Assembly (NCBI GenBank): GCA_023664365.1
Contig: JAMPFR010000027.1
Coordinates: 1 to 41,815 of the forward strand
Length of the DNA stretch: 41,815 nucleotides
From: Acetatifactor muris
GTDB taxonomy: Bacteria > Bacillota > Clostridia > Lachnospirales > Lachnospiraceae
Direction of reading: 5' to 3'
Shown here: one piece after another, positions 33,396-36,481 of the stretch
Position numbering within the stretch: position 1 is the stretch's first letter
Layout: every line of letters begins with the position of its first letter
Notes under the pieces: model-generated
The model's database searches: none
What the model saw: only the letters and a program-made list of their open reading frames with translations
What the model was told of the DNA's origin: nothing
Program-made: the position numbers and the translations under genes

Positions 33396-34123
33396 TGAGG
33401 AGCGCTTCGGGCAAAAAACATATATTATTGAGAAGCAAAAAGCGGCTTCTCAATAATCATGTACTATTGAAATTCGACCCACGGACAGAGCTTTTGTTTC
33501 TGATACTGGCAAATGTGGTGGCGTTTACCCAGCATTCCCTGTGGGGTGAGGTTACATGGGTTGTTTTGCTGCTCCTGTTGATCGTTGCCTGCGGCTGCAC
33601 AAAGTCCGCAGGCAGGCTGGCATTTGCCTTTGGGCTCTGCCTGCTCCTGCAGTATTATGTTTTTCCAAACGGGCCCAAAATTTTAGCAGGCAGTTTTGCC
33701 ATCCTGGTTTCCTATGCGAGGAAAGTTTTTCCATGCCTGATTGTGGAAACTTTGACATTACAGAAAACATCTGTCAGGGAGCTTATGGCTGCTCTGCGCA
33801 GATGTCATATCCCACAGGGGCTGATCACACCGCTTTCCGTAACCATCCGCTATTTTCCAGCCTTGAAAGAAGAAGCGGGATACATAAGGGATGCCATGAA
33901 ACTGCGGAACATCCACGGGATACAAAAAATAGAGTGCCTGCTTGTCCCGGTTATGATCTCGGCGGCAACAACTGCGGAGGAACTGTCTGCTGCCGCTGTC
34001 ACAAGGGGGATTGAAAACCTGGCGCATAAAACGAGCATGGTCGAAATGAAATTCGGCGTGCAGGACTTTTTATGCCTGGCATTCGGTGTTGTATTTTGTT
34101 TTATCTCAGTTATGGCAGGATAG
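33395..34123 (+). CDS. ECF transporter T component (CbiQ/EcfT family)
   Basis: The 242-aa membrane protein has FDPRTELLFLILANVVAFTQ at the start, four to five helices, and the two cytoplasmic coupling motifs of EcfT proteins: the first near RYFPALKEEAGYIRDAMKLR, the second near ELSAAAVTRGIENL (A-x-x-x-R-G type). It links the S component to the ATPases. The ATG overlaps the S component stop, and the ATPase gene follows after 11 bases. Confidence 0.85.
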   Translation: MRSASGKKHILLRSKKRLLNNHVLLKFDPRTELLFLILANVVAFTQHSLWGEVTWVVLLLLLIVACGCTKSAGRLAFAFGLCLLLQYYVFPNGPKILAGSFAILVSYARKVFPCLIVETLTLQKTSVRELMAALRRCHIPQGLITPLSVTIRYFPALKEEAGYIRDAMKLRNIHGIQKIECLLVPVMISAATTAEELSAAAVTRGIENLAHKTSMVEMKFGVQDFLCLAFGVVFCFISVMAG

Positions 34124-34134
34124 GAGGTGTGCCC

Positions 34135-35541
34135 GTGATAGAGATACAGGATGTTTCTTTTGCATATGAGAGAGGACAGGGGACGCTTTCCCATATGAAC
34201 CTGCAGATTGGGCGGGGTGAGTGTGTGCTTCTCTGCGGGGAAAGTGGGGGCGGCAAGACAACGGTGACAAAGCTGGTCAATGGACTGATCCCCCATTTTG
34301 TGAAGGGCGGTGATTTATCAGGCAGGACGGTGGTAAATGGGCTGGATGTTTCGGATATGGAAATGTACCATCTGGCAGAACAGGTCGGCTCCGTGTTCCA
34401 GAACCCCAAGTCACAGTTTTTTAATATGGATTCTGACAGCGAGATCACATTCGGGCTGGAAAATGCGGGCACCTCACCGGAGAAGATCAAAGAACGTCTG
34501 GAGGCCACGGTTTCGGCACTGAAAATCGGGCCGCTTCTTGGAAGAAATATTTTCTCCATGTCCGGCGGGGAAAAACAGAGCCTTGCTTTTGCAAGCGTTT
34601 ATGCCATGGACCCGTCTGTGTTTGTGCTGGATGAGCCGACAGCCAACCTGGATGCGGAGGCAATTGGCATCCTGCGCAGGCAGATCATGCAGATTAAAAA
34701 AGAAGGGCGGACGGTCATTGTTGCGGAGCATCGTCTGTATTTCCTGATGGATTTGGTTGACTGTGCCGTATTCCTGCAGGACGGGAAGATGATTCAGATT
34801 TATTCGGGAGATGAATTCAGGAGAATCCCGGAGGGGCAGCGTATCAGGATGGGGCTGCGGAGTTTCACTGACCCCGTGATGGAACTGCCGAGCGCCAGGC
34901 CGCCCGGAACGAAAAACGGGCTGTCGGTAGAAAACCTTTCCTGCGCATTTTGCAGGCAGACCATATTTGAGGGGATCAGCTTTTCAGCAGATCCCGGAGA
35001 GGTGCTTGGAATTGTGGGATGCAACGGGGTGGGAAAGACCACGCTGACACGGTGCCTATGTGGTCTGTTAAAAGAAAAAAATGGAACCGTCCGGCTTGAC
35101 GGGATGGTCCTGAACCGGAAACAGCGGAACAGGGCGTGCAGCCTTGTCATGCAGGACGTAAACCACCAGCTTTTTTCGGACAGCGTGTGGGATGAATGTG
35201 AACTGTCCACGCCGGAGCGCAGGTCAGCGTCTGGCAGTGGCGTCCGCTATCCTTTCGGGAAAGCGTCTCCTGATATTCGACGAACCCACCAGCGGGCTGG
35301 ATTACAGGCATATGCTGGAAGTGGGGCGCATGATCCGGGATCTGGCGGGGCAGGGATGCATTGTGCTGGTAGTTTCCCACGACAGGGAGTTCATGGAGAA
35401 AGCCTGTGACCGCATATTTGAAGTAACAGTTCAGCCATACCGTAGATCCTTTGTGTACAATGTATATTCTGGCAAATTATGAATGGCATGGCTGAACTGT
35501 TACTATTTGAAATGGATGGAAGGAGGGGTATGGATGGATGA
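34135..35541 (+). pseudogene. Double ECF-type ATPase, damaged by a deletion and a MITE
   Basis: The first ATPase domain is complete: Walker A CGESGGGKTT, VFQNPKSQFFNMD, signature MSGGEKQS, Walker B VFVLDEPTANLD and His in VAEHRLYFL. The second has Walker A GCNGVGKTT and MQDVNHQLFSDSVWDECELS. At about 35205 the frame breaks, with the loss of the segment that holds the usual signature. The rest, with Walker B LLIFDEPTSGLDY and VVSHDREFMEKACD, is in another frame. The last codons are split by an 81-bp MITE (35423-35503). Without the MITE the gene would end at TGA 35539-35541, overlapping the AraC start. GTG 34135 is the best start, seven bases after AGGAGG. Confidence 0.8.
35415..35511. mobile_element. 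81-bp MITE with 16-bp terminal repeats and 8-bp target duplication
   Basis: GTAACAGTTCAGCCAT (35423-35438) and its exact complement (35488-35503) bound an 81-bp element without coding capacity. The 8-bp TATTTGAA is found immediately outside both ends (35415-35422 and 35504-35511), a target duplication. Removing element plus one duplication restores a plausible ATPase C-terminus. GTAA ends and 8-bp duplications are features of IS66-type transposition, so an IS66-like enzyme may have moved it (inference). Confidence 0.9.
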
Positions 35542-36481
35542 GTTTCTGCTTACGGAAGATACCGGCGTAAAACTGGTGGAAGCGGGAGGGTGCAGCGTGT
35601 ATCAGCTACGGAATGAGACGGGGGAAGGGACGATCACCGTCTATGAAGTTTTTCCGGGAGTCAGCCTTTCCTATAACGATTTCCATATCCGTTATTATGA
35701 CAGCAGGTTCAAGCCGGACAGGAATGTCTTCTGCATCGACCACTGCCGGGAAGGACGGCTGGAGTATCCGGCGGCGGATGATGCCTATTCTTATGTGGAA
35801 GCAGGGGATCTGAAACTTGACCGCAGGCTTACCCATACCGGGCATTTTGAGATGCCCCTTTCCCATTACCATGGCGCAATGGTGTCTTTTGATATGGATG
35901 CTGCCTGCAGATCCCTGCCGCAGGAGGTTAAGGACTTTCCCGTGAACCTGCGGGCATTGCAGGAAAAGTTCTGCAGCGGTATTTACCCTTATGTGGTGCA
36001 TGGCGACGGCTCCATTGAACATATTTTTGGGGAACTGTACGCGGTGCCGGAAAAAATCAAACGGCCTTATTTTAAGATTAAGATCCTGGAACTGCTGCTG
36101 TATCTGGAGGCATTGGAACTGCCGGAAAACCCGGCAGAGAAACCGTATTTTTACCGGACGCAGGTGGAGAAGGTCAAGGCGGTGCAGCAGTTCCTTGTGG
36201 GGCATATGGATGAGAATTTCACGCAGGAGGAGATGTCCCGCCGTTTTGATATCCCGCTGACGCCCCTTAAAAACTGCTTTAAATCGGTTTTTGGGGCAAG
36301 CATTGGAAGCTACCTTCTGGAATACCGGATGAACCAGGCGGCCGTTTTCTTAAGGACAAAACGGGAGATGAGCGTGGCGGAGATTGCCGGGCGCGTGGGA
36401 TACGACAGCCCAAGCAAGTTTGCGGCGGCTTTCCGCAGGAAAATGGGGATGACGCCGATGGATTACCGGAACCGGTTGTAG
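35534..36481 (+). CDS. AraC family transcriptional regulator
   Basis: The 315-aa protein has a sensor domain (YEVFPGVSLSYNDFHIRYYD, FCIDHCREGRLEY) and a C-terminal double helix-turn-helix: FTQEEMSRRFDIPLTPLKNC, MSVAEIAGRVGYDSPSKFAA and the closing FRRKMGMTPMDYR. This type is often found beside ECF or metallophore ABC genes in Clostridia. The start ATG 35534 follows AGGAGGGG and lies in what was the end of the ATPase gene. It likely controls the ECF genes upstream and the ABC pair downstream through the shared GTCCAATCGG motif. Confidence 0.85.
   Translation: MDEFLLTEDTGVKLVEAGGCSVYQLRNETGEGTITVYEVFPGVSLSYNDFHIRYYDSRFKPDRNVFCIDHCREGRLEYPAADDAYSYVEAGDLKLDRRLTHTGHFEMPLSHYHGAMVSFDMDAACRSLPQEVKDFPVNLRALQEKFCSGIYPYVVHGDGSIEHIFGELYAVPEKIKRPYFKIKILELLLYLEALELPENPAEKPYFYRTQVEKVKAVQQFLVGHMDENFTQEEMSRRFDIPLTPLKNCFKSVFGASIGSYLLEYRMNQAAVFLRTKREMSVAEIAGRVGYDSPSKFAAAFRRKMGMTPMDYRNRL

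Follow-up and report, generated by a model that had tools for sequence, protein, structure and literature searches.

A transposed 81-bp MITE at an ATPase-AraC gene junction: probable movement by a single-gene branch of IS66-family transposases and a possible kinship of the full-length interior with Clostridiales-1 RNA

Between the genes of an ABC ATPase and an AraC-family regulator, the window (the whole stretch of 41,815 nucleotides that was analysed) carries a short sequence with inverted ends and a direct repeat on either side. This arrangement raises the question whether a mobile element has landed here and, if so, what could have moved it, where its short form comes from, what became of the genes and what its interior is. 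We hold with good confidence that a non-autonomous MITE entered between the ATPase and AraC genes, duplicating 8 bp of the target, that a transposase of an IS66 branch probably acted on it in trans, and that the full-length interior would be Clostridiales-1-like. The features of the locus are the following.

34072..35409, plus strand: first frame of a duplicated ABC ATPase belonging to an ECF-type transporter; its second domain leaves the frame (PF00005, two stretches)
35192..35482, plus strand: C-terminal ATPase piece, in a different frame and with element sequence in place of its tail (domain search, translation)
35415..35422, no strand: left copy of the 8-bp target duplication TATTTGAA (sequence reading)
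35423..35503, plus strand: 81-bp MITE, right-half (internally deleted) form (direct reading; relatives; match to L225)
35423..35438, plus strand: left terminal inverted repeat GTAACAGTTCAGCCAT, perfect over 16 bp against the right end
35432..35437, plus strand: CAGCCA, where a deletion is proposed to have joined the left terminal repeat to the internal CAGCCA of the full-length parent (L225, L208)
35438..35487, plus strand: remaining core; in the full-length element, this is the right arm of the third helix (alignment of relatives)
35477-35486, plus strand: conserved TTATGAATGG within the remaining core (alignment of relatives)
35480..35485, plus strand: stop-start pair supplied by the element: TGA in the ATPase frame, then directly an ATG in the AraC frame (sequence reading)
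35488..35503, minus strand: right terminal inverted repeat ATGGCTGAACTGTTAC, perfect over 16 bp against the left end
35504..35511, no strand: right copy of the 8-bp target duplication TATTTGAA (sequence reading)
35534..36481, plus strand: AraC-family regulator downstream of the element (PF12833, PF00165)

The sequence-only reading had described an element of 81 bp with perfect 16-bp ends, 49 bp between these terminal repeats and TATTTGAA on both sides; its coordinates and letters are all correct. The first 14 bp of the left terminal repeat (35423-35438), GTAACAGTTCAGCC, constitute the end that is common to the whole family and is also the left end of an insertion sequence (IS) at locus L312, which is described below. 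The window element contains no coding gene and is short, as is expected of a MITE; its ends begin with GTAA and it is flanked by an 8-bp duplication, as is expected of an element mobilised by IS66. Folded as RNA, it reaches -36.6 kcal/mol compared to a mean of -17.5 for shuffled sequences (z -6.05), so that the hairpin proposed to stand upstream of AraC is real by RNA folding.

The exact 14-bp end occurs in 57 of 299 family genomes, with two or more copies in 38 of them and up to 154 (77+77) in a single genome; the reversed pattern, used as a control, gave one match in all 299. We collected 168 non-redundant end pairs, each end having at most two mismatches of 14 and the ends lying 28-260 bp apart; this set takes in loci fetched for earlier matches, plus 20 elements fetched on their ends alone. 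A perfect 8-bp duplication flanks 73 of these pairs and a further 31 match at 7 of 8 positions, which gives 104 of 168 at 7/8 or better. A separate tally of pairs includes, at L018, L039 and L046, more than one pairing for an end. The duplicated target sites are A+T-rich, and where 7 or 8 of the 8 bases are duplicated, the element is 29 to 243 bp long. The 20 elements are exact end pairs 85-174 bp apart, taken from some of the listed pairs only and chosen blind to duplications: 15 have perfect 8-bp duplications and 16 reach at least 7/8, compared to a mean of 0.8 and a maximum of 5 in the shuffle control. Flank identity in these 20 is 0.92 at a length of 8, versus 0.44 at 7 and 0.38 at 9. Since relatives that share these ends and are flanked by an 8-bp duplication stand at many sites, the insertion is far beyond chance. 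The window element is a genuine transposed MITE, unremarkable in kind but belonging to an unusual family, and the corresponding claim of the sequence-only reading holds: copies are abundant, not confined to this site.

Two other readings of the hairpin were weighed against these data. Strong hairpins and a high copy number would also suit a REP-type or IS200/IS605-type element mobilised by a Y1 or RAYT transposase. Such systems are not known to make a target duplication, and the sharp duplication at 8 bp contradicts this reading, which we regard as very unlikely. Still less credence, close to none, can be given to a fixed regulatory hairpin or attenuator that merely resembles an insertion: the position just upstream of a regulator gene would fit, but numerous copies stand at sites unrelated to one another, their flanks and duplications differing, which contradicts it, and no terminator was found at the element.

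In the window genome itself (G000; 3.86 Mb in 174 contigs), GTAACAGTTCAGCCA occurs 21 times with at most one mismatch, and its reversed control is absent from the 12 genomes of that scan. The other elements of this genome measure 52, 75, 89, 93 and 177 bp; duplications are perfect for those of 75, 89 and 93 bp, and match at 7 of 8 positions for the 52-bp and at 3 of 8 for the 177-bp element. The starts of two contigs (G000:C97 and G000:C107; L125 and L186) show the two ends of apparently one element with the same flank TCTGAAAT, which looks like one insertion broken by the assembly. Beyond the family genomes, GTDB contigs were scanned for the 16-mer, allowing a changed position, and at least 120 stretches matched; among the 80 matches listed, 73 are assigned to Lachnospiraceae or other Clostridia and five to other groups, and two have no group named. 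This distribution points to Lachnospiraceae as the probable source of the window. Viral contigs (IMG/VR) contributed 10 stretches with the 16-mer. Three elements of 80-105 bp on viral-classed contigs (L239, L241, L243) have 7 or 8 of 8 bases duplicated; no relative of the window's AraC protein was found among the viral contigs.

The family varies widely between its ends. Minimal elements of 29-31 bp, scarcely more than two 14-bp ends, were seen with perfect 8-bp duplications (L200:867-895, L315:5306-5336, L350:4060-4090), and G171 has a subtype of 242-243 bp with about 55 bp extra in the third-helix region (L199:1014-1255, L197:1743-1985). Other interiors between the same ends were noted at L367-L369 (G029), L383-L386 (G093, G256), L297 and L308; they are not matched by the interior model R1 introduced below, and most have 7 or 8 of 8 duplicated bases. 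Judged from these sequences, the same ends apparently enclose a number of hairpin interiors that are unrelated or highly diverged.

With respect to the origin of the window copy, the type to which it belongs measures 183-189 bp at full length. From 35432 on, its core matches the right part of a 186-bp element in a genome of the same genus (L225 in G674) at 63 of 72 positions, compared to 40 of 78 for the left part. L225 has an internal CAGCCAGCCTGTAAATCC starting at element position 115; the window copy and a second element of G674 (L208) consist of the terminal repeat, followed by sequence from the internal CAGCCA onward. The same kind of CAGCCA join appears when L008 is compared with L023 and L038. 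Because of the unequal match to the two parts of L225 and this join, we regard the window copy as a right-half form, most simply explained by a deletion between two copies of CAGCCA.

Such a deletion might also have taken place on the spot: an element of about 186 bp would have inserted at the window site and lost its left part there, and the 81-bp form would never have moved. An in-place deletion between the CAGCCA copies would leave the duplication untouched, and G000 yielded no further copy of the 81-bp form. Against this, short forms recur at other sites with other duplications: L329 comprises two 68-bp copies, 63/68 alike, at two sites with the duplications GATTTCCA and TATATCAG, and further short forms measure 86 bp (L270) and 85 bp (L345). 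G674, too, has a right-half form at another site, namely L208, whose right end is shortened. We therefore consider loss in place somewhat unlikely. The L329 copies, standing at two sites with different duplications, indicate that short forms can move as such; near-identical short forms at different sites also run counter to the possibility that one 81-bp sequence is simply a fixed part of the locus.

What the insertion did to the gene junction is only partly as first proposed. The ATPase frame now stops at the TGA at 35480-35482, within the element. When the flanks are joined by eye, the ATPase frame would run across them to a TGA at 35539-35541, overlapping the AraC start (ATG 35534), in agreement with the tight junction that had been suggested. 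The ATPase gene hit by the insertion was not otherwise intact, however: near 35190-35260, and independently of the MITE, its second domain is spread over two frames. In the same region (35190-35260), the second domain seems to be without the stretch before its Walker B part. According to the domain search, the operon of the insert also encodes CbiQ-type and Trep_Strep-type membrane proteins. The AraC start at 35534 and an AAGGAGG at about 35521 both lie beyond the element, leaving ribosome site and start intact. That the insert might add a promoter in front of AraC had also been suggested and found no support: no promoter toward AraC was found in the window, and the sole consensus site faces the other strand. 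In sequence terms, then, the insert replaces the ATPase tail and adds a TGA-ATG pair and a hairpin, while sparing ribosome site and start of AraC. The search for an empty site, which the sequence-only reading had called for, was carried out in 61 genomes of the genus and yielded one orthologous junction (G639:C26), which is degraded, and no clean empty site; for this reason, the case for transposition is built on the target duplications.

Which transposase could have moved the family? A scan for autonomous elements of up to 5 kb gave one poor candidate (L260); widening it to 6.5 kb led to L312. There, a complete IS at L312:81-1909 of Roseburia inulinivorans DSM 16841 encodes a single IS66-family transposase of 485 aa (PF03050, E 5.4e-19; NCBIfam NF033517, 132.9 bits, which is below the IS66 cut-off of 180). 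Its ends are GTAACAGTTCAGCCCTCCGGCTG and GTAACAGCTCAGCCTTCCGGCTG, the 14-bp ends being GTAACAGTTCAGCC and GTAACAGCTCAGCC; the right end has one mismatch, and the IS has no duplication of its own. It is the only complete IS with these ends that was seen. Thus, an IS with the same ends does exist and is IS66-like, as the sequence-only reading had guessed. The L312 transposase has matches in 39 of 397 family genomes, close ones (66-92% identity over the matched part) in seven. From seven other genomes, nine close copies were inspected, mostly fragments or cut by contig ends: the exact 14-bp end lies beside six of them, the copy of G040 has an end with two mismatches, and for the remaining two (G029:C119 and G074) none was present in the stretch fetched. 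The outer base lies 47 bp past the last matched codon at each of the five right ends seen (L312, L387, L388, L391, L417). More distant relatives of the transposase end in GTTACTGTTCA or GTTACCATTCA, and two of these loci (L390, L402) have perfect 8-bp duplications. Transposase and ends also occur together: three of the four close-relative genomes in the 299-genome set are among the seven whose ends number at least 40 (p 3e-5 by the hypergeometric test, for a cut-off of 40 that was picked after the counts were seen).

Ordinary IS66 loci of the family have GTAA ends as well, with perfect 8-bp duplications in three cases (L160, L167, L180). As a source of the MITE ends they were rejected: of 32 distinct loci, 10 allowed an end pair to be proposed, none of them with the inner end TTCAGCC, and the loci L118, L119 and L124 gave no end pair. 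The TTCAGCC-type end was found only at the divergent single-gene IS66 branch. Like the single-transposase IS66 elements (the ISBst12 group), the system combines ends in GTAA or GTTAC with 8-bp duplications (L160, L167, L180, L390, L402) and an IS66 DDE transposase; it differs from the IS66 elements in that the window element is gene-less and in that the L312 transposase, of a single-gene branch, scores under the NCBIfam cut-off. On the basis of these comparisons, movement in trans by an IS66-family transposase of the single-gene branch, whose ISs end in GTAACAGTTCAGCC, is well supported.

Several genomes, some of them rich in copies, complicate this assignment. In G000, the L312 transposase has no match in an assembly that is 98% complete (174 contigs), which contains only a 43-residue IS66 fragment, and the assembled sequences of the copy-rich G339, G369 and G170 match neither PF03050 nor the L312 protein. 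In G029, no facing pair at IS distance was seen among the 100 of 154 ends listed. Where the transposase is absent from the assembly of a copy-rich genome, the mobiliser has been lost, is unassembled or is a different one. The MITE might also be moved by another resident DDE transposase that makes 8-bp duplications, and the ISs of the IS66 branch would merely be similar at their ends. The missing transposase in G000, G339, G369 and G170 favours this reading, as does the failure of the 32 ordinary IS66 loci to provide a TTCAGCC inner end. The exact 14-bp end at six of nine close transposase copies, the constant 47 bp on the right side, the co-occurrence across genomes and the shared duplication of an IS end and a MITE end in L312, described next, all speak against it, and we judge it improbable.

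The single-gene IS66 branch remains the preferred mobiliser, and L312 offers a view of how its ends might be used. On a stretch of 5872 bp (L312:81-5952), ATTTGCAT stands outside the left end of the IS and again outside the far end of a 163-bp MITE. The right flank of the IS, AATCAGGA, and the inner flank of the MITE, CGAAAAAC, match neither copy of ATTTGCAT, and neither IS nor MITE has a duplication of its own. The cargo between them consists of an Rrf2-type regulator, an acyl-CoA dehydrogenase-ETF-rubredoxin fusion and an ODP-flavodoxin protein. This pattern, a single case, would be expected from a composite transposon bounded by an IS end and a MITE end, and suggests that MITEs may act as transposon ends and move metabolic genes. 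At L312:81-112, and at L391 near 1454, an inverted copy of the end was observed just inside the outer one (GTAACAGTTCAGCC, a few bases, then GGCTGAACTG or part of it), which makes one IS end look like a 31-bp mini-element.

Taken together, we propose the following course: a transposase of the IS66 branch, supplied in trans, would bind the 14-bp ends, cut and join by the usual DDE chemistry and sometimes pair an IS end with a MITE end. If it acts on the 14-bp ends, the interior would be free to vary. Three MITEs compared with the L312 IS have the ends in common with it; the best internal match, that of the MITE of L312, is 21 bp long (E 0.01). As this is no convincing internal match, these three MITEs do not look like simply deleted ISs.

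A comparable bacterial case is MITEPsy1 of Pseudomonas syringae, which was caught in transposition; it is short and gene-less, with terminal repeats, a target duplication and ends matching those of a resident IS (PMC3189936). There, the duplication is 4 bp long, compared to 8 bp in the window family (PMC3189936). The window family further differs in being widespread, in its invariant 14-bp end with diverged interiors, and in the conserved RNA-like fold of the full-length interior. In literature searches with little coverage of subscription journals and without ISfinder, no description of this MITE family was found.

The fold of the interior is supported by covariation. In an alignment of 17 interiors of the 162-165-bp type (17 of 19 picked elements; L263 and L321 were omitted), 27 of 40 pairs show double compensatory changes, and in 22 elements of the 183-189-bp type this holds for 28 of 45 pairs. 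The latter 22, like the nine loci tested first with the Rfam model RF01699, are hand-chosen, intact-looking examples. RF01699 represents Clostridiales-1 RNA, which appears in a table of Weinberg et al. 2010 (PMC2864571). It matches all nine chosen elements of 145-165 bp over the full length of the model with 31-44 bits, in eight of the nine lying 3 nt inside the transposon ends; all end-bearing elements that match score between 24 and 44 bits, under the gathering score of 48. Among the 20 elements fetched on ends alone, the number of matches was three. L222 reached 39.8 bits and the 177-bp element of the window genome (L194) 24.4 bits (E 0.17). No match was obtained for L223, for the MITE of L312 or for seven elements of the 183-189-bp type (L002, L012, L025, L027, L031, L225, L343); within that type, the single match was L020, a relative with degenerate ends (30.3 bits). 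Matches of the hairpins to Rfam microRNA families were taken as chance.

In the opposite direction, model R1, built from interiors without the ends, was applied to 25 Clostridiales-1 loci. It found 17 at E <0.02 in the same place and on the same strand; of the other eight, two were at E 0.26-0.3 and six were missed. R1 recognised six of six elements of the 173-177-bp type, including L194, the MITE of L312 (E 1.7e-6), and 13 of the 20 elements fetched on ends alone, four of which are near-copies (>=93%) of rows in R1; it did not match any of 20 IS66 loci (72 kb), nor any part of the window. Part of the model score may come from fold shape alone. That R1 fails on other end-bearing hairpins (seven of the 20) argues against shape being enough to score. 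At L293:3427-3524 and L293:4277-4349, R1 matches (E 4e-4 and 3e-3) were seen outside the end-bearing element of that locus.

For the type from which the window copy stems, the relation to Clostridiales-1 is less direct. R1 found one of seven elements of the 183-189-bp type (L210, E 0.001), and the window element matches neither RF01699 nor R1. Going by the model matches, full-length relatives of the 145-177-bp types and one of seven elements of the 183-189-bp type would share the fold and helix order of RF01699, but not the truncated window copy. A 175-bp element, L223, combines sequence features of both types and was used as a bridge. Because the 183-189-bp type mostly fails with both models and is linked by way of L223, the kinship of the window type to Clostridiales-1 is indirect.

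Full-length elements and Clostridiales-1 RNA appear to have in common a closing helix, a long hairpin with a GCTTGC loop, a short GC hairpin and an ATGAG...GAAT helix; the models match in both directions, and Clostridiales-1 is likewise a high-copy repeat, present in 40 of 246 genomes of the order, several with at least 11 matches. In contrast to the MITEs, its closing helix is not GTAACAGTTCAGCC, and two tests on 25 canonical loci detected no 8-bp duplication. Clostridiales-1 copies were partly seen in tandem (L127-L151 and others), for example at G417:C1:2260989-2261340.

We regard the full-length interior as a probable Clostridiales-1-like structured RNA module that passed under the control of IS66-type ends, rather than as what is left of a deleted IS. 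Tentatively, and with less than even confidence, we extend this to the idea that Clostridiales-1 and the IS66-type MITEs form one superfamily: a structured RNA gene would have acquired transposon ends and spread in trans through the Lachnospiraceae, its fold being kept by selection on the RNA and the 14-bp ends alone serving movement, and MITE and IS ends could together carry neighbouring genes as a composite. This offers an explanation by mobility for an RNA motif listed in 2010, whose row in the table gives no function (PMC2864571), and turns the conservation of an internal RNA fold in a MITE into a question that experiments can address. At the same time, a widespread MITE family of gut bacteria is paired with its likely transposase. 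As a minor observation, a 173-bp element of the family lies directly upstream of a ZMP/ZTP riboswitch (L222:1510-1836).
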